From Methanobrevibacter sp. (GTDB lineage: Archaea; Methanobacteriota; Methanobacteria; Methanobacteriales; Methanobacteriaceae), in assembly GCF_030539665.1 (NCBI RefSeq), contig NZ_JAUNXR010000001.1, forward strand, positions 288,767 through 352,766: a stretch of DNA of 64,000 nt, written 5' to 3'. Below the pieces are notes generated by a model. That model was not told the DNA's origin and ran no database searches. It worked only from the letters and a program-made list of their open reading frames with translations. Positions within the stretch are counted from its first letter, which is position 1. Each line of letters starts with the position of its first letter. A program made the translations under genes and the position numbers. Positions 20,705-62,935 of the stretch are shown here, one piece after another.

Positions 20705-21757
20705 CTACTTTTTATTCAAATAAACTTTTACAATATGATTCACTAATTTTTTCATGGATGACCATTCTGGTTTGCTTATCTGATTTTTAAAAATGGAATC
20801 AATAATTTTCTCAGCGGTTTTTTCAGTAACCAATCCATTTTGGTATTGGTCTAGAACATGCAGAATCAGGGAAACGTATCCAACAAGCTCTGAATCTCTA
20901 TTGGCTTTTCTCAATTCAATTAAGAACTCTTCCTTGTCGGGAATGTCATTATAGAACTCATTTATGTCAACATCGTATCTGGATAATCTGATAAGTGCAT
21001 TGGATTGGTATGTGGGGGTTAGCCAAATCTGTTTCACCAATGATTCCTTAATCGATTTTATCACTGATTTGGCAATTAGCTCTCCGAGTTTTGAATGTTT
21101 GCCTGCATTTGATAAATGATTTTCCGAATTTGGTTCTGAAAAGATAGCTATTCCGTCAGTTCCAGTCCCTGTTGCAACCTTTGACGAATATCTGCTTGGG
21201 ACAATCAGTTCCCTTAAAGCTACAGTTTTTGCTTCTGTTGCGGTCATCTCTGCCTGCAATAGGCAGGATTCATTTAATCTTGCATTTATGAGTATTATGG
21301 TATTTATCGTACCAATTTCCAAGTCAAATTCTCCATTTTCCTCGTAATAGCCTGCCGGATCTCCTGCTGCAACTGCATTTACATTGGTTCCGGCGGTTGA
21401 AATGGCAACGACTTCCAGTTTTCTAAATCTTTCAACAGCAATTCCGGCATTTTTCATTTTAGCCGATGTTATTAGTCCGCTTATGTTTTCCTCATTTAAA
21501 TTAAACTCATCGGCCAGATTTTTAGTTAATCTGTTGAGGTAAACATTGATGTCAACTTCCCCACTTTCATTTTCATCAATATTTTTTTGGGAAAGCTGAT
21601 GGTTAAAAACAGCCTGGAAATCTTCACTATAGCCTCCGTTTACCAGAGAGGTTATAATTCCATTTCTTTTATTTCTAAATTTAATTAAAATGGTATTGTC
21701 GGTTGAATAAATTTTGTCTCCATCGTTGAATTTTCTTGTTAGTTTAAATTTATTCAT
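20705..21757 (-). CDS. cbiZ: Adenosylcobinamide amidohydrolase CbiZ
   Basis: Hydrolyses (adenosyl)cobinamide or pseudo-cobamides to cobyric acid, letting the cell rebuild its own cobamide. The family blocks are present: NGGYSEDF (40-47), TAGTNVNA (121-128), AGDPAG (131-136), TATEAKT (172-178) and GTGTDG (197-202). At 350 residues it has about 110 extra C-terminal residues beyond the CbiZ domain, mostly helical. It is the last gene of a minus-strand unit with an ECF transporter, which suggests that the transporter brings in a corrinoid. No good Shine-Dalgarno is seen. Confidence 0.9.
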   Translation of the reverse strand: MNKFKLTRKFNDGDKIYSTDNTILIKFRNKRNGIITSLVNGGYSEDFQAVFNHQLSQKNIDENESGEVDINVYLNRLTKNLADEFNLNEENISGLITSAKMKNAGIAVERFRKLEVVAISTAGTNVNAVAAGDPAGYYEENGEFDLEIGTINTIILINARLNESCLLQAEMTATEAKTVALRELIVPSRYSSKVATGTGTDGIAIFSEPNSENHLSNAGKHSKLGELIAKSVIKSIKESLVKQIWLTPTYQSNALIRLSRYDVDINEFYNDIPDKEEFLIELRKANRDSELVGYVSLILHVLDQYQNGLVTEKTAEKIIDSIFKNQISKPEWSSMKKLVNHIVKVYLNKK

Positions 21758-21783
21758 AATACCATTTTAGTTTTTTAATTTAT

Positions 21784-22389
21784 TTAATTGGTTTGCAAAA
21801 ACTTGGTTTTTGCACGTAGGAATATTTTCTTAAACCATTTGTAGAATATTACCAATAATACAGCGTTAGCAATCGCATGCAATAAATCGAAGAATGCGCT
21901 GGCTGCGAATAATGCGATAACTGAAGTTGCAGTTGGCACTATGTAGAATATTCCTGAAATGTCAGTTATCCATCCATATAGGAATCCCCATGCAAACCCG
22001 AATGCTGCTCTTGCAATTGTATTGTCCAATTTTGTAGTTATTAGTCCTGCAGTATAACCCATCAATCCCCATCCAATCATTTGGAATAGGGACCAATATC
22101 CGAGTCCTGTGAAAAGATCACTAACCAGTGCTGCGAGAGCCCCTACAAGGAATCCTTCGTTACGGCCATAGACAATACCTACCATTATCACAATGAACGA
22201 ACAGGCCTGAACTCCAGGAACTGCAATGAATGCCAGACGACCTATTGTGGCAATAGCTACCAGAATAGCTATTAAGACAATTGATTCAACGCTTGGCTTT
22301 GATTTTTCATACATCTTAAATGCAACATATACGAATCCTAATATTATCGCTGCGGACAAGATTAGGGTTGTCATCATAATTGTATCCAT
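21784..22389 (-). CDS. ECF transporter S component (probably corrinoid)
   Basis: 201-residue substrate-binding membrane subunit of an energy-coupling factor transporter, with six hydrophobic segments. IGRLAFIAVPGVQACSFIVIMVGIVYG and GALAALVSDLFTGLG are typical of ECF S components. Substrate is inferred from the neighbour cbiZ: cobinamide or cobamide. The ATG at 22389 follows a GAGAGTGA; an in-frame GTG at 22398 overlaps that site. Lies between the ATPase gene (22-nt gap) and cbiZ (26-nt gap). Confidence 0.8.
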   Translation of the reverse strand: MDTIMMTTLILSAAIILGFVYVAFKMYEKSKPSVESIVLIAILVAIATIGRLAFIAVPGVQACSFIVIMVGIVYGRNEGFLVGALAALVSDLFTGLGYWSLFQMIGWGLMGYTAGLITTKLDNTIARAAFGFAWGFLYGWITDISGIFYIVPTATSVIALFAASAFFDLLHAIANAVLLVIFYKWFKKIFLRAKTKFLQTN

Positions 22390-22411
22390 AGTTATCACTC
22401 TCTATATTTTT

Positions 22412-24148
22412 TTATAAGTCCCATTTTTTGCGAACATCAGGTATTGTAACGCATTTTGGGCAGTAATTTTTCACCATTCTGTTGATGAATGTTGTGTAAA
22501 AGTTATTTTCTCTAAATATCGCTTTTGGGAATGTATCTATTTGAATGTCTTTGTCAAATAGCATCAAACAGCGTTCACAGTTATTTGCAACAAATGGCAA
22601 ATCATGACTTGTCATTACTATTGTCATTCCATCTTTTCTAATCTCTTCGAAGATTTTTGCCAACTTTAAACTTGAAATCGGGTCCAATGCTTTCGTAGGT
22701 TCATCCAAAATTAGGATGTCAGTATCCTGAAGCATTGTTTTCATTATGACTATTTTCTGCTGTTCCCCACCACTACAATCATAGGGGTTGCGACTTAGCA
22801 GATTCCCTATTCCAAATAAATTTATTAGCTTTTCAAAGTTTAAACTGGAATTGTCATAGGTAATCTCATTCAATTCATTGTCTGTAATTAAGTCATAATC
22901 GTCAAGTTCCATGAGTTGTTCCCTATATTCGTCTGGAATATTGATTGAAGATATTAGCTCTTCTTTTACGGTATCCTTTGAAAAGTGAATCATTGGGTTT
23001 TGATAAACGAAACCGATTTTAAGGCCTTTTTTATATTTTATTTTTCCCTTGATTGGGTCTAATAGTCCGGCCATCAATTCTAATAATGTTGACTTTCCAG
23101 AGCCGTTTCCTCCGATTATGCTGATGTAATCGTTTTCATAAATTTCCAGATTTATGTTTTTAAGAACAAGGTTGTGTTTTTCGTATGCGAAGTACAGGCC
23201 ATCTGCTTTTATAACATATGGTTTTTCTTTATCTACATCCATATTCCCATAATCATTTTCCAAATTTATTCCATTATCCTTCATTTTCATTAATTGGTCA
23301 TGTATTAAATTGAGACATTTCCTACCTTCACGGATGGTTAATGGAACCTCGATTTCATTTAAAATAGGGTATTTTTTAGATAATAGGTTATATAATCTGC
23401 TTACTGATGGAAGGTAGTGAATAAATGTTTCGTCACTGAAGCTTTCTTTAGCTATTTCATATGGATTTCCGGAATATTCAATGGTTCCATCCTTCATAAA
23501 AACAAGTCTGTTGATGGATGAAAAGACATGGTCTGCCTTATGCTCGCTTAAAATAATTGAAATGGAAAACTCCTCGTTTAAACGATTTAAAATTGATATG
23601 AAATCATGGGTGGCTATTGGATCCAGCTGTGAAGTGGGTTCATCTAACAACAACACTTTAGGTCTTAATGTTAAAAGGGAACAGAGGTTTACAAGTTGCT
23701 TCTGCCCTCCGGAAAGTTCATTGACATTTTTATGCAAAATGTCATTAATTCCAAAGAAAGTAACGATTTCACTGACTCTATTGCGTATTTCGTCAGTTGG
23801 AAGTCCAATATTCTCAAGTGGAAATGCTATTTCCTGAATTACCGTGTCCATTACAAGCTGGCTGTCAGGATTTTGGAACAGATAGCCGATATCGCATGCG
23901 GAAGTCAATTCATCAAGATTGGAAATTTCAGTTCCATCATATTTTATTGTTCCACTTTTTTCACCGTTTGGAATCAATTCCTTTTTTAAGTTGCTTAATA
24001 ATGTGGTTTTTCCGCATCCTGAAGGTCCGCATAACAGGATAAAGTCACCTTCCTCAACTTCTAAATTAATATTTTTTAGGCATTTTTTCGCTTTGCCCTC
24101 TTCATCGATATAAGAAAAATCAAAATCTTTAATTTCTATCTGTGCCAT
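22412..24148 (-). CDS. ECF transporter ATPase, two fused ABC domains (EcfA-EcfA')
   Basis: 578-residue protein with two complete ABC ATPase domains that energise the ECF transporter. Domain 1 (about 2-240) has Walker A GPSGCGKTT and signature LSGGQKQL; domain 2 (about 310-560) has GGNGSGKST and CSGGEQQK. Most systems use two separate genes or a homodimer; the fusion is common in some archaea and actinobacteria. A C-terminal tail has a C-x2-C (YCPKC). GGAGG at 24156-24160 sets the ATG at 24148, 13 nt inside the end of the EcfT gene. Confidence 0.9.
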   Translation of the reverse strand: MAQIEIKDFDFSYIDEEGKAKKCLKNINLEVEEGDFILLCGPSGCGKTTLLSNLKKELIPNGEKSGTIKYDGTEISNLDELTSACDIGYLFQNPDSQLVMDTVIQEIAFPLENIGLPTDEIRNRVSEIVTFFGINDILHKNVNELSGGQKQLVNLCSLLTLRPKVLLLDEPTSQLDPIATHDFISILNRLNEEFSISIILSEHKADHVFSSINRLVFMKDGTIEYSGNPYEIAKESFSDETFIHYLPSVSRLYNLLSKKYPILNEIEVPLTIREGRKCLNLIHDQLMKMKDNGINLENDYGNMDVDKEKPYVIKADGLYFAYEKHNLVLKNINLEIYENDYISIIGGNGSGKSTLLELMAGLLDPIKGKIKYKKGLKIGFVYQNPMIHFSKDTVKEELISSINIPDEYREQLMELDDYDLITDNELNEITYDNSSLNFEKLINLFGIGNLLSRNPYDCSGGEQQKIVIMKTMLQDTDILILDEPTKALDPISSLKLAKIFEEIRKDGMTIVMTSHDLPFVANNCERCLMLFDKDIQIDTFPKAIFRENNFYTTFINRMVKNYCPKCVTIPDVRKKWDL

Positions 24149-25017
24149 ATCCACACCTCCTCAAGCTCTAAATAAATTAAAGGTAATAAAAATACTATGA
24201 ATGCAAAATAGTAGATATTTAGTGGAAAATCATTCCATGAAAAGTTCATTTTTGGATAGATTGAAATATATCCGTTTCCATAAATTAGTCCATAAATCAG
24301 GACAGTTAATGTTATGGCCATTAACAAAATAAAACAATAATCTGCTTTGTTCATTGTATATTTCAGGTAACTGGTTCTTTTTGAACTTAGATAGCCTCTG
24401 GCTTTCATGGATTTTGCTGTAAGCATTGCCTCTTCTAGAGACCAGGCTACAGTCACTCCCATAATGTTTCCAACTTTTTTTATTCTTTCTTTTAATTTGT
24501 CGAATTTGGAATTTTCTCCTGTTTTGTCTTTTTCTTCTAATTTCATTAAATTGCTGACTTCTACTGTTCTTTTTTCAAGAAGCGGGATGAATCTTAATGC
24601 CATCACTAAAATCATTGAGATTATTGGAAATTTTTTAGATAAAATATAGAGCATTTCCTGGTATGAAACCATCTGGTTGTAGGAATTCAGTGTTAGCAAT
24701 ATAAGGAAAAATGATCCAGCCATTATGAATCCGTATGAAACTGCTTCAATTGTAATAAAATAGCTTCCCCAAATATAAATTCTATTGTCTCCAGTGTAAT
24801 TGAATAAAAAATTCAGGACCACTATAAAAATTCCGATGGGAATGAATATTTTTATCTGATTTAATATGTCTTTTTTCCCACCTTGGAGATAGATTAGTAA
24901 TAATATCATTAAAATAAACGTTATCATATAATAAGGATTTGTAAAAACAAACGAAAACACGGCTAATAATACATAATATGCTATTAAAATTCCAGGATGT
25001 ATTTCCGTCAATTCCAT
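24136..25017 (-). CDS. ECF transporter transmembrane protein EcfT
   Basis: 293-residue membrane scaffold of an ECF transporter linking the ATPases to the S component. It has about six TM segments and the coupling-helix motif AMLTAKSMKARGYLSSKRTS, which contains the conserved A-R-G element. First gene of the minus-strand unit EcfT, EcfA-EcfA', S, cbiZ; AGGAG precedes the ATG. Confidence 0.88.
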   Translation of the reverse strand: MELTEIHPGILIAYYVLLAVFSFVFTNPYYMITFILMILLLIYLQGGKKDILNQIKIFIPIGIFIVVLNFLFNYTGDNRIYIWGSYFITIEAVSYGFIMAGSFFLILLTLNSYNQMVSYQEMLYILSKKFPIISMILVMALRFIPLLEKRTVEVSNLMKLEEKDKTGENSKFDKLKERIKKVGNIMGVTVAWSLEEAMLTAKSMKARGYLSSKRTSYLKYTMNKADYCFILLMAITLTVLIYGLIYGNGYISIYPKMNFSWNDFPLNIYYFAFIVFLLPLIYLELEEVWIWHR

Positions 25018-25220
25018 TTTCTCATCTCCTAGTGTCTTTATTATTAAAAGTATTATTCAACATATTTAAAGTTTTCTTTAAAAAAATTAAAATCAATTTG
25101 TAAATTTTCATGTATTTCTAAAGGTTTGTCGATAAAATGAGGATGGGTGTGGATGTGTGGAAAACTTTATAACAATTAATATTAATATAAAGATTGAAAA
25201 ATAAAAGTAGAGGTGGAAAA

Positions 25221-56880: not shown

Positions 56881-57538
56881 CTTTAATTCCTGCTTGTTTA
56901 AATGCTCTTTTACGTCTCATGCAAGATTCACAGACACCACAATGGTTTTCTTCCCCCATATAGCATGAATAGCTCAATTTCATTGGCGCATTCACAGATT
57001 CGCCTAATTCCACAATCTCGTCCTTGTCCAAATCGATTGCAGGGGCCTTCACCTCAATATTGTCTGGTGATCCAATCTGAATCAGTTTATTGAAAGCTTC
57101 TAGGAATTCCTTTGAATTGTCTGGAAATGTGGCTGCTTCTTCCTTATCCCATCCTACAATGATAATTTCTGCGCCGATGCTTTCTGCAAGAGCTGTTGCA
57201 ATAGCGGTGAAAACTGTGTTTCTTGCAGGAACCCAAACGCTGCTTGCAGTCTGTGAACAGATTTCCAAATCATCCAGCTCATCTTCATTAAGCTCAGGAA
57301 CTTCGTTGTCACTTGTAAGTGAGGAATTGCTGATTTCACCTAACCATTTCAAATCAATTATGGTATGTTCAAAGCCCATTTTCTCACAAATCTCTTTTGC
57401 AGCTTTTATTTCTCTATCTACGCTTCTTTGACCATAGTCGAATGTTATTGCATGAATATCGTAATCCTTTGCATAAACTGATGTGGCCACTGTTGAATCC
57501 AATCCTCCGGAAAGGACAGATATTGCTTTTTTACTCAT
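56858..57538 (-). CDS. queC: 7-cyano-7-deazaguanine synthase QueC
   Basis: ATP-dependent conversion of 7-carboxy-7-deazaguanine to preQ0, precursor of archaeosine in archaeal tRNA. 226 residues: PP-loop VLSGGLDSTVATSVYA, TFDYGQRS, and the C-terminal zinc site CYMGEENHCGVCESCMRR with four cysteines. Starts within 8 nt overlap of the larC end and overlaps the HD gene, forming a tight larC-queC-HD unit. Confidence 0.95.
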   Translation of the reverse strand: MSKKAISVLSGGLDSTVATSVYAKDYDIHAITFDYGQRSVDREIKAAKEICEKMGFEHTIIDLKWLGEISNSSLTSDNEVPELNEDELDDLEICSQTASSVWVPARNTVFTAIATALAESIGAEIIIVGWDKEEAATFPDNSKEFLEAFNKLIQIGSPDNIEVKAPAIDLDKDEIVELGESVNAPMKLSYSCYMGEENHCGVCESCMRRKRAFKQAGIKDETIYNS

Positions 57539-58712
57539 CTAATTCACCTATTCTGTTTATAATGTCTTTCAATGGGATTCCGGTTTGGAGGGCTATTTTT
57601 TTAGCGTCCTCAAACTCTATTCTACTGGAAATAACATTTCCATTCACATAGCCCACTTTGTATGTCACTTCAAAGATTTCATCGTCAATTTCAACTTCTT
57701 TTTTAATAAACTCTCTTTTTGCAAGGCCTCTATGGAGATTTGGGACTATTCTAATTCCCAATGTTCCGACTTCCCTAAAAATAATGTCTATTAATTGTTC
57801 TGTTGATTCCTTTTTGGCTATTACTTTTAAGATATGCCCCGGACGATTTTTTTTCATCAGAATGGGGACTAGTGAAACGTCTCTTGCGCCTTTTTCCAAA
57901 AGCAGGTCAAAAAGATATCCGAGCTCTTCACCTGTTAAATGATCGATATTTGTCTCAATCACATTGATTTCATCGCTGTTAGTAACTTTTTCACTTTGTA
58001 TTACTCTTAAGACGTTCGGAAAATCAAACTCCTTTTTTCCAGCTCCATATCCTATCTTTAAAGGAGTTATTTGAGGAATGAAATCTCTAATTTCATCTAC
58101 AAGTTCCATATAGATTGCACAGCCTGTTGGTGTTGCAAGTTCACTGTCAACAGGCCCTCCAACACATTTTCCTTCCTTAAGTATCTCCACTACTGCAGGT
58201 GCAGGAACAGGAAGTATTCCATGGGCAGTTTTCACTCTCCCACCACCTACAGATATTGGAAGTCCTATTATTTTATCCTCATTTAATTTTAGGGAATAGT
58301 ATGCACTTACAGCACCGATTACATCTGCTACCGCATCGCTTTGACCCACTTCATGGAAATGGACCTTTTCCAGACTGCTTCCATGAACTTTGGCTTCTGC
58401 CTTAGCTATTCTTGTAAATATGCTTATGGATGTCTCCTTTATTTGCTCATCTAAATCCAATGTCTGTATTTTTGCTATAAACTCGTCGAAGTGCATCACG
58501 TCTCCCTTGTCAATGATTTCCACATTGCAGTAGGTAGACGCAATTCCTTTTTTGTTTATTTTTTCAAATGAAACTTTAACCTCTCCAAATTCATTAGCTG
58601 ACTTTTCCATAATTTCCTTTATGTAATTTTCATCTGCTCCCAGGTCGATAAGAGCTCCAATTATCATGTTTCCAGCTATTCCGCTTGTTTGAGGGTCAAT
58701 AATGAGTGTCAT
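57531..58712 (-). CDS. larC: Nickel-pincer cofactor nickel insertase LarC
   Basis: CTP-dependent nickel insertion into the pyridinium-bisthiocarboxylate (NPN) cofactor of lactate racemase-like enzymes. 393 residues with DPQTSGIAGNMIIGALIDLGAD at the start, VHFHEVGQSDAVADVIGA and TPTGCAIYMELV in the middle. The ATG at 58712 matches homologues; an in-frame extension to 58826 encodes a basic, low-complexity stretch and is rejected. Divergently arranged with larE, 183 nt apart, so both cofactor genes may share a control region. Confidence 0.9.
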   Translation of the reverse strand: MTLIIDPQTSGIAGNMIIGALIDLGADENYIKEIMEKSANEFGEVKVSFEKINKKGIASTYCNVEIIDKGDVMHFDEFIAKIQTLDLDEQIKETSISIFTRIAKAEAKVHGSSLEKVHFHEVGQSDAVADVIGAVSAYYSLKLNEDKIIGLPISVGGGRVKTAHGILPVPAPAVVEILKEGKCVGGPVDSELATPTGCAIYMELVDEIRDFIPQITPLKIGYGAGKKEFDFPNVLRVIQSEKVTNSDEINVIETNIDHLTGEELGYLFDLLLEKGARDVSLVPILMKKNRPGHILKVIAKKESTEQLIDIIFREVGTLGIRIVPNLHRGLAKREFIKKEVEIDDEIFEVTYKVGYVNGNVISSRIEFEDAKKIALQTGIPLKDIINRIGELDE

Positions 58713-58895
58713 AATAACAACTTTCCATTTTTTTATATATTTGCATGAATTTTTGTTTTTAATGTTATTAGTTTTTTTGTAATGTTTGTCTGGGAGCATA
58801 AAGTGTGAATAATTCATTTTCAACATAGAAAGGGTTATGGATAATTGGCAAAAGATATAATCTTTAAAAAAATAAAAATTAAATGTGGTTATTTG

Positions 58896-59864
58896 ATGAT
58901 TATTGAAAACAAAATCGATGAAGTAAAAGAAATACTTAAGGATAAGGAAGTTGCTATTGCCTTTTCGGGAGGAGCAGACAGTACGTTAATGGCTTATTTG
59001 GCAAAAGACGTGTGTAAAAGAGTTTTGGCCATTACTATTGATAATAATATTTTACCTCCTTCTTTCATTGAAAATACTGAGAAATTTTGCCGGAGTTTAA
59101 ATATTCCTCAGGAAATTATTTTTGAGGATTTTTATAATCATGAGGATATAATATCCAATAACCATGACAGATGTTTTTTATGCAGAAAAGAGATGTACAG
59201 GCATATTTTTTCCGTTGCTAATGATAATGGATTCTCAACAATTGTAGATGGAACCAATATTTCTGATTTGGTAATTGACCGTCCTGGAATTTTAATAAAT
59301 TATGAAAATGATGTTTTAAGTCCATTTGTTAAAGCAAGATTAACTTCAAAAGAAATACATGAATATTTGAATAGGAATAACATTCCTTATTCCAGCTCTA
59401 CAACTTGTTTGGCTACCAGGATTCCATTTGATGATAGATTTACAAAAGATGCATATGAAAGAATTTCCGATTCGGAGGAGTTCGTTTATAATAATTCTGA
59501 CTGTAAGATTGTTAAGGTTCGTGAAAATTCATCCACAGCAACCGTTGAAGTGGATTCAATTGAAAATTTAATAGATAATGATAAATTAGGTTTAATAACC
59601 ACTTATTTGAAAGGCAAAGGATATGAAAAGGTCTTATTGAATTTAACAGAAATTGAATCCGATGAGGATATTCATATTGAATTTTCAAACAATGAATTCA
59701 GCTATATGCTGCCTTATGGGATTGATCTTGAAAAAACATTCATTGATGATGAAAATATTGATGTTTATGAAAACGGTTTGATAGTTGGTAGAAATTTTGA
59801 GAGCTATGATTCCGCATTAAATTCATTTATGGATATTCTTCCGATGATTAGAAGGCAAATTTAG
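58896..59864 (+). CDS. larE: Sulfur transferase LarE for the nickel-pincer cofactor
   Basis: ATP-dependent PP-loop enzyme that turns the carboxylates of the NPN precursor into thiocarboxylates. 322 residues: PP-loop AFSGGADSTLMAYLA (24-30), RCFLCRKEMY with Cys93 and Cys96, and TTCLATRIPFDD with Cys171. The single-Cys sacrificial type needs only the last; three cysteines in this arrangement fit LarE proteins reported to bind a [4Fe-4S] cluster. The ATG at 58896 matches homologue starts; a TTG at 58845 is an alternative. LarB and LarA are not in the window. Confidence 0.88.
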   Translation: MIIENKIDEVKEILKDKEVAIAFSGGADSTLMAYLAKDVCKRVLAITIDNNILPPSFIENTEKFCRSLNIPQEIIFEDFYNHEDIISNNHDRCFLCRKEMYRHIFSVANDNGFSTIVDGTNISDLVIDRPGILINYENDVLSPFVKARLTSKEIHEYLNRNNIPYSSSTTCLATRIPFDDRFTKDAYERISDSEEFVYNNSDCKIVKVRENSSTATVEVDSIENLIDNDKLGLITTYLKGKGYEKVLLNLTEIESDEDIHIEFSNNEFSYMLPYGIDLEKTFIDDENIDVYENGLIVGRNFESYDSALNSFMDILPMIRRQI

Positions 59865-62161: not shown

Positions 62162-62935
62162 ATGGAAGATGATTATTTTAAGGATGAAAAATTCTCTCCA
62201 TTCAAGTCCATTTTAGGGCTTGTAACATTCTCAACAATTCTGCCGATCAATGTTTTCACATCTATTGAATACATGACAAAAATGACCTGGTTTTGGCCAA
62301 TTATCCATTTTTTCATTGGGGCGTTGGCTGCAGGAGTTGCTTTTATTTGTCAGGACTTTTTGCATTTCAACCCATTGCTTGTGGCTGTCATAACCTATGC
62401 ATTCTTAATGTTAATAACCGGATTTAACCATATTGATGGCGTGATGGATATGGCTGACGGAGTGATGGTTCATGGGGATGCTAAAAAGAAGATATCAGTC
62501 ATGAAGGACTCAATGGTTGGTGCTGGAGGAATAATGGCTGCCATTCTTATTGCATTGATAACAATTGCAGGCATTTGCAATGTTCTTGATTATAGGTTCA
62601 TAAATGGAATCATAATCTGTGAAATGGTTGCAAAAACTTCCCTTCTCACAACAGCTTTAACCTCAAAACCGATTGATGGTATCGGGTCATACTTTATAAG
62701 GTCAACCAATATTGTAAATTATGCGGTCTCTACAATTATTGTAGCTGTCTTATGCTTCCTATTGGGGAATATTGTGGGGATATTTGGACTTATTGGTGCA
62801 ATGTTTGCCGGAGCAGTAGTAAGTTTGATAGCTAAGAAAAACTTTGGAGTAGCTAATGGGGATGTTTTAGGAACATCAAATGAAATCGGAAGGGCTGTGG
62901 CACTTTTATTCATGATTATAATGTTATTTTATTAA
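62162..62935 (+). CDS. cobS: Adenosylcobinamide-GDP ribazoletransferase CobS
   Basis: Membrane enzyme joining alpha-ribazole (phosphate) to AdoCbi-GDP to complete the cobamide. 257 residues, six or seven TM segments; the hallmark GFNHIDGVMDMADGVMVHGDAKKKISVMKDS and the later VGAGG are complete. It lies 2 nt after the CbiS-like gene and abuts trm56, so it forms a cobamide assembly unit with the upstream gene. Confidence 0.95.
   Translation: MEDDYFKDEKFSPFKSILGLVTFSTILPINVFTSIEYMTKMTWFWPIIHFFIGALAAGVAFICQDFLHFNPLLVAVITYAFLMLITGFNHIDGVMDMADGVMVHGDAKKKISVMKDSMVGAGGIMAAILIALITIAGICNVLDYRFINGIIICEMVAKTSLLTTALTSKPIDGIGSYFIRSTNIVNYAVSTIIVAVLCFLLGNIVGIFGLIGAMFAGAVVSLIAKKNFGVANGDVLGTSNEIGRAVALLFMIIMLFY

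Follow-up and report, generated by a model that had tools for sequence, protein, structure and literature searches.

What does an energy-coupling factor (ECF) transporter import when the last gene of its unit encodes CbiZ, an amidohydrolase of corrinoid remodelling? The question is raised by four consecutive genes of Methanobrevibacter sp. (RefSeq assembly GCF_030539665.1, contig NZ_JAUNXR010000001.1, positions 288,767 to 352,766; this stretch of 64,000 nucleotides is referred to here as the window, and the genome has the code G000 in our sample), which encode the coupling subunit EcfT, a fused double ATPase (EcfA-EcfA'), a substrate-binding S component, and CbiZ. The presence of A, T, and S genes together identifies the cassette as an ECF transporter that has a module of its own, and the recurrence of the unit in relatives argues that the grouping is not due to chance. 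A first-pass annotation had described the four genes as one tight minus-strand unit, which they are: the genes for EcfT and EcfA-EcfA' overlap by 19 bp, and the gaps that follow are 13 and 26 bp. We read the cassette, with a probability of roughly 0.8, as a dedicated ECF-type corrinoid importer, with the enzyme for the first step of remodelling encoded by the last gene.

The identity of the S component carries most of this reading. Compared with all PDB sequences, the single protein retrieved CbrT (6fnp_A, E = 3.1e-8) followed by 4hzu_S (3.5e-5), which we take to be FolT. The A1 profile, made from 21 S sequences of archaea, gave CbrT (6fnp) at 8.7e-14, 4hzu_S at 2.5e-4, and no other match to E = 1. 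With a 16-row profile (A3), built from 11 of 18 non-Methanobacteriales sequences and five methanogen ones, CbrT was found at 7e-25 and 4hzu_S at 3.9e-8, the other matches being two folate S chains (0.015 and 0.058) and one unrelated chain (0.82). By sequence profile the S component is of the CbrT type, ahead of the other S families of known structure, and its predicted substrate is most likely a corrinoid. Identity to a 160-residue stretch of CbrT is 26%; used as the sole query against the PDB, that stretch matched nothing except itself. A joint alignment of 18 rows (six methanogen sequences, 11 others, and CbrT, with L128 left out; numbering of the first row) revealed two patterns common to the S family and CbrT, GxGxWxxxQ and DxxHxxxN. 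Invariant positions included G94, G96, Q102, G134, Y137, G138, and D167, while W98, H170, and N174 were nearly so; the exceptions to the motifs are Y for W in L126, the absence of H and N in L083, and E for D in L128, the sequence outside the alignment.

Import of a non-corrinoid vitamin, riboflavin or folate, with CbiZ in the unit by chance, would fit the Pfam "riboflavin" match (PF07155), the closest folds (folate, thiamin, and riboflavin S chains), and the second rank of 4hzu_S by sequence. The Pfam label does not discriminate, however, because the CbrT stretch itself matches PF07155 and PF12822, above both cut-offs. Against the NCBIfam models of the riboflavin type (NF010182) and the folate family (TIGR04518, the FolT family), the S component scored 17.9 and 13.5 bits, well short of their cut-offs of 99 and 60, and the E-values favor CbrT over 4hzu_S by about three orders of magnitude with the single protein, nine with A1, and sixteen with A3. 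Together with the cobalamin riboswitches at relatives' loci described below, these data make a riboflavin or folate transporter highly improbable. They bear out, as a prediction, the earlier proposal that the S component imports a corrinoid rather than the vitamins usually assigned to ECF systems; clustering with a non-corrinoid family was not seen.

When bacterial and archaeal genomes were searched with A1, 34 loci were obtained, 16 in methanogens of this group (L104-L119) and 18 in other organisms. The Rfam scan covered the latter 18. A cobalamin riboswitch (RF00174; best match per locus, 100-129 bits) was present at nine of the 10 Bacillota S loci (L120, L121, L122, L126, L128, L130, L131, L133, and L136), the hosts being Neobacillus, Anaerotalea, three Cohnella, Aneurinibacillus, two Brevibacillus, and one Paenibacillaceae metagenome-assembled genome (MAG). 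In eight of these nine loci the riboswitch lies upstream and on the same strand as the ECF operon and is followed by the genes leading to S, with a predicted 304-aa opposite-strand open reading frame (ORF) between riboswitch and operon in L133 and with some ECF ORFs merged or unlabelled in the maps of L121, L130, and L133. In L126, two riboswitches are found downstream of the ECF operon, the start of which is beyond the locus edge. Cobalamin riboswitches number only a few per genome. The predicted corrinoid substrate thereby gains support, from CbrT kinship and from the riboswitches in bacterial relatives, that is independent of CbiZ.

Cobalamin riboswitches also govern other B12-related genes. 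One of those in L126 stands directly ahead of a gene for cobalamin-independent methionine synthase, downstream of the ECF operon. On these grounds the substrate could be neither cobinamide nor a cobamide but some other precursor or fragment of a corrinoid, such as cobyric acid or a lower-ligand compound, and the present evidence does not fix the exact ligand. Cobyric acid would nevertheless be useless to CbiZ, which acts on cobinamide and cobamides, and CbrT, the nearest characterized relative, takes whole cobalamin and cobinamide; there seems to be very little chance that such a precursor is what the S component binds.

The relatives' loci also encode proteins that may be concerned with corrinoid capture. 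We domain-scanned 29 proteins of S loci, mostly encoded upstream within or beside the operons, and found DUF4430 in 15, SLH in nine, and prenyltransferase-type toroid domains in five (some of the toroid matches by whole-protein score alone). DUF4430 proteins occurred at L120, L121, L122, L124-L128, L130, L131, L132, L134, and L136, often with SLH or toroid domains combined in the same gene or a neighbor. They are encoded by operon genes at eight of the nine riboswitch loci, L133 having SLH only, and by a divergent gene beside EcfT at all four Methanofastidiosum-type loci tested (L124, L125, L127, and L132). The toroid domain resembles the other domain of transcobalamins. DUF4430 is described as the C-terminal domain of transcobalamins (PMC4350170). 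It is possible that the DUF4430/SLH/toroid proteins form a prokaryotic transcobalamin-like corrinoid capture system.

The association with CbiZ was examined in 149 Methanobacteriales genomes, of which 33 carry S, 101 carry CbiZ (one below the family cut-off), and 21 carry both. In 13 of these 21 (G000, G025, G031, G035, G048, G051, G070, G093, G103, G107, G119, G139, and G144) the two genes are within 5 kb of each other, with gaps of 105 to 3467 bp. In three genomes (G099, G022, and G020) they are on the same contig, 17.6 to 765 kb apart, and in five (G005, G041, G054, G080, and G096) on different contigs. CbiZ is hence not distant in all relatives, an outcome that would have spoken against the cassette as first annotated. 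Three gene orders were found: T-AA-S-CbiZ in the window and in most of the linked loci, S-CbiZ-T-AA in G035, and CbiZ-T-AA-S in G103. The S and CbiZ genes of G051 are separated by an ORF on the other strand. Because the linkage survives rearrangement of the gene order, a functional tie between S and CbiZ is indicated. At the level of genome presence the two genes are uncorrelated (21/33 versus 80/116), and the linkage is positional.

A number of observations weigh against our reading of the cassette, beginning with the fold of the S component. An AlphaFold2 model (mean predicted local distance difference test score, 88.2) aligned by VIA-align with folate, thiamin, and riboflavin S chains at Z values of about 14 to 15.6, CbrT (6fnp_A) appearing at rank 22 (Z 10.5; root mean square deviation, 3.2; 148 residues aligned), and with Foldseek CbrT was not in the best 50 of 111 matches (E up to 10). 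The fold comparison thus does not favor CbrT; S components share one fold, and among them a search by fold is not informative as to the substrate. The riboswitch figure is a raw count without a shuffled or random-locus control; in the Rfam scan, RF00174 was missing from the tenth Bacillota locus, that of a Clostridia MAG (L137), and from all eight other S loci scanned (six of the Methanofastidiosum type and two of Actinomycetota), and the Rfam scan of the window returned no match, so that no cobalamin riboswitch is present there. Nor do the methanogens have the DUF4430 part, because no match to it was obtained across the 149 Methanobacteriales genomes.

The same holds for the distribution of CbiZ, which occurs without S in 80 of the 149 genomes, while 12 of the 33 S genomes are without CbiZ (three g5, six g13, and three g4 by genus code, the g4 assemblies being incomplete or fragmented). 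S is found in two of 66 genomes of g1, the genus of the window genome, and in the second of them, G005, CbiZ is on another contig beside a chaperonin-type gene. These figures, the eight of 21 genomes in which S and CbiZ are not within 5 kb, and the failure of phmmer to find a CbiZ-like ORF in the 18 S loci from outside Methanobacteriales, some of which are short, would be expected if cobamides were imported whole by the ECF system and used directly, CbiZ being a mere neighbor serving de novo or recycling metabolism. We consider this unlikely in view of the linkage in 13 genomes through three gene orders and of the distinct cassette-type CbiZ lineage that replaces the usual g1 type here. The first-pass annotation had used CbiZ as the pointer to a corrinoid substrate; the substrate is supported by other means, CbiZ alone being no proof given its frequency in genomes without S.

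The CbiZ of the window is the genome's only PF01955 match. It does not qualify as CbiS, the fusion to alpha-ribazole phosphatase (NF038002, 78.8 bits versus a cut-off of 250, covering model positions 2-191 of 335), and its C-terminal extension of about 115 aa matches no Pfam family above cut-off; relatives usually have cbiZ open frames about as long. A tree was built of 52 sequences, from 52 of the 101 CbiZ genomes (three rows partial, including G048, and several long-branched). In it the CbiZ proteins of the window and of G048, a g4 genome, are sisters (support, 98/88). Both fall within a clade of CbiZs from g4 and g2, 10 of 13 from linked loci (support, 99/99), and apart from the 19 other g1 sequences in the tree. 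Forcing the g1 CbiZs into one clade cost 55 log-likelihood units (approximately unbiased test, p = 5.45e-05, run after the tree was seen). Percent identity alone fails to sort the protein, with 49-53% to full-length cassette-clade CbiZs and 43-51% to those of g1. The vertical marker Top6B places the window genome inside g1 (support, 100/99; 29 of 30 rows, one short row dropped); its Top6B is 88% identical to that of G008, and its CbiZ is 51% identical. In phylogenetic terms, the window genome has a cassette-type CbiZ and not the one usual in g1. At all nine sampled non-window g1 loci (G005 and eight without S), CbiZ adjoins one gene cluster, the tested member of which is a Cpn60/TCP-1 chaperonin; some g2 and g4 CbiZs adjoin a cobalt-type CbiO gene. 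In G008 and G023, about 1 kb separates the RIO and KH genes that flank the cassette in the window, and the four cassette proteins had no match there. The cassette was either acquired by transfer or is an old copy that other genomes have lost, both readings fitting these data.

The corrinoid metabolism of the host puts a further limit on our reading. The window genome has CbiC, which belongs to de novo corrin synthesis and is found in 136 of the 149 genomes, and CobS, the cobamide synthase that rebuilds cobamide after CbiZ, is encoded in the window about 37 kb from the cassette. Because of these two genes, which with CbiB make up the pathway genes searched, the organism is probably not an obligate scavenger, and uptake need not be essential. 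The import part of the corrinoid scavenging first proposed is supported, whereas "supplements or remodels" describes the process better than "scavenges", given CbiC. CbiB, reportedly needed in the archaeal CbiZ route (Woodson 2003), is present in 124 of the 149 genomes and was not found in this assembly, which again counts against us. Contig C1 begins at a point equivalent to about 39 kb in G005 contig 14, from which the two run collinearly, and G005 CbiB is at 13.5 kb; since by this synteny the expected place of CbiB lies beyond the start of C1, its absence is probably an assembly gap.

We also considered a BtuC-type importer as an alternative route. A FecCD match is present in 99 of the 149 genomes, and the only FecCD-type permease found in the window genome is reduced to two short C-terminal pieces (model positions 233-268 and 270-311 of 311), located beside a shortened binding-protein ORF (locus L150); relatives carry longer genes in this FecCD/binding-protein arrangement. 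The one relative's permease tested had BtuC as its best match, below cut-off, and is followed by an FmdE-like gene (by eye). We rejected this candidate, as the permease is broken in the assembly and the FmdE-like neighbor leaves its substrate ambiguous. The break may be an assembly fault, or an intact copy may lie in a gap (the assembly is 95% complete). The ECF cassette is the sole candidate corrinoid importer found in the genome in a search that, besides the ECF loci, covered the FecCD type. Tentatively, and at somewhat less than even odds, these data may be combined into a broader scenario for gut Methanobacteriales, in which a CbrT-type ECF importer and a specialized CbiZ lineage would form a co-transferred uptake-and-remodelling cassette, and foreign gut cobamides would be cut at entry and converted into the methanogen's own form; the cassette-bearing genome would apparently have lost its old CbiZ, its BtuC-type importer being broken in the assembly.

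For the cassette itself, we infer the substrate, the direction of transport, the action of CbiZ on the imported corrinoid, and the benefit to the cell. On the outer side of the cell, the CbrT-type S component would bind cobinamide or a whole cobamide, and the loaded S component would dock on EcfT-EcfAA', topple, and release the corrinoid inside at the cost of ATP. CbiZ would then cut the amide bond adjoining the aminopropanol linker by hydrolysis to give cobyric acid, from which a cobamide with the organism's own lower ligand could be made via CbiB, a nucleotidyltransferase, and CobS.

The features of the cassette and the other loci mentioned are collected in the table. Together the four minus-strand ORFs span exactly 20705-25017 of the window. 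The Pfam match of EcfT is weak, barely above cut-off, and its score against TIGR02454 (35.7 bits) is under the equivalog cut-off of 111.8; EcfT homologues hold the same position in relatives' loci. EcfA-EcfA' falls just below the cut-off of TIGR04520 (307.7 versus 315 bits) and exceeds that of TIGR01166 cbiO (231.4 versus 211.8), and by eye both halves retain Walker A, the signature SGG, and Walker B. For two genes an internal ATG looks like the likelier start: that of S at 22389, nine bases inside the listed GTG (201 aa), and that of EcfA-EcfA' at 24148, six bases inside the listed start.

Features of the corrinoid cassette and of other loci referred to in the text (window positions unless a locus or contig is given)
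Feature	Position	Strand	Basis
EcfT, transmembrane coupling (T) subunit, CbiQ family, 293 aa	24136-25017	-	PF02361, 27.5 bits (cut-off, 25)
EcfA-EcfA', fused double ATPase, 580 aa	22412-24154	-	Two ABC_tran stretches (Pfam)
S component, CbrT-type, predicted corrinoid-binding subunit, 204 aa	21784-22398	-	PF07155, 50 bits, and PF12822, 35.2 bits, both above cut-off
CbiZ, adenosylcobinamide/cobamide amidohydrolase family, 350 aa	20705-21757	-	PF01955, 185.4 bits (cut-off, 27)
CbiZ C-terminal extension	20705-21052	-	
Likely promoter and leader of the cassette	25021-25070	-	By eye from the sequence
TATA-like TTTAAATA, upstream of EcfT ATG	25070-25063	-	By eye
Ribosome-binding-site-like GGAGATGAG, ahead of EcfT ATG	25029-25021	-	By eye
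CobS	62162-62935	+	
Two adjacent LarC- and LarE-like ORFs	57531-59864		By eye
FecCD/BtuC-type remnants	G000:C2:203613-203845		
Riboswitch and methionine synthase gene	L126:11243-13915		
AP_endonuc_2 genes beside S (g5)	L079:3983-4726, L081:4054-4785, L082:5363-6106		

The cassette is flanked on the opposite strand by RIO-type and KH-type genes (names by eye), and the end of cbiZ adjoins the stop of the RIO-type gene. CbiQ-family loci in the genome number three, namely, the cassette and two with CbiM cobalt S components. ORF clusters c13 and c22, found beside the unit in relatives, had no Pfam match at 1e-8. Four g13 genomes (G065, G090, G091, and G098) have three to five S-like matches each, some of them fragments, and no CbiZ. 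In the three g5 genomes with S and without CbiZ, an AP_endonuc_2 (TIM-barrel) gene is directly beside S, its best NCBIfam match being CbiR (NF041277) at 59-75 bits, below the cut-off of 105; CbiR, a remodelling enzyme, belongs to this superfamily. Replacement of CbiZ by CbiR in g5 was rejected: all 149 genomes match the CbiR model at E <= 0.001, single matches in the order reach 89.6 bits, three genomes exceed the cut-off only through neighbors fused into a single frame, and the copies beside S are nested within a sample of 30 AP_endonuc_2 paralogues. A similar gene at Anaerotalea L121 is sugar-isomerase-like. Elsewhere in the window, two adjacent ORFs resemble what we take to be LarC and LarE of nickel-pincer cofactor synthesis.

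The prediction of CbrT reportedly goes back to Rodionov et al. in 2009. The ECF-CbrT system of Lactobacillus delbrueckii (PDB 6FNP) has an S component of the same sequence family and the same kind of ECF module, and its report describes ATP-dependent uptake of cobalamin and cobinamide in liposomes, with a KM of 2.1 nM for cobalamin and a Kd of CbrT of 9.2 nM for cobalamin and 36 nM for cobinamide (PMC5997447). In that organism, cbrT is reported in an nrdJ-cbrS-cbrT-pduO cluster (PMC5997447), whereas the window unit is archaeal and holds EcfT, the fused EcfA-EcfA', and CbiZ together. CbiZ is known as an archaeal cobinamide amidohydrolase and as the remodelling enzyme of Rhodobacter sphaeroides; it is described as cleaving the amide bond beside the aminopropanol linker, and its coupling to uptake has been suggested before (PMC7733943). 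By analogy with those members, and sharing PF01955 with them at 185 bits, the window CbiZ would hydrolyze adenosylcobinamide or cobamides to cobyric acid. In many bacteria cbiZ is reported beside cobalamin transporter genes, the case described being of the btu type (PMC8620254). In contrast, the partner of the window CbiZ is of the ECF type, not BtuFCD, and its C-terminal extension belongs to no known family.

The Bacillota riboswitch operons share the S family and, in most maps, have labelled EcfT- and EcfAA-like ORFs; they add the riboswitch and large DUF4430 and/or SLH proteins and have no CbiZ-like ORF that we found, whereas the window unit has CbiZ and neither the riboswitch nor the DUF4430/SLH proteins. 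The CbiMNQO cobalt importer, represented by the two CbiM-bearing loci of the same genome, shares the ECF architecture; the S component of the window unit is vitamin-type, however, and the unit contains no CbiM. Among the literature matches listed (titles and starts of abstracts), there was no description of a CbrT-type or other ECF importer coupled to CbiZ in archaea. What appears to be new is the joining of CbiZ to an ECF importer of the CbrT type within a single archaeal unit, both partners being of known kinds.

To our knowledge, the number of archaea that import cobamides has not been established. The cassette provides a concrete candidate corrinoid importer in gut and rumen methanogens, with the remodelling enzyme in the same unit, and suggests that an S-component family with the Pfam label "riboflavin" has a role with corrinoids. 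As methanogenesis needs cobamides, corrinoid sharing between gut bacteria and methanogens would become testable via one four-gene construct.

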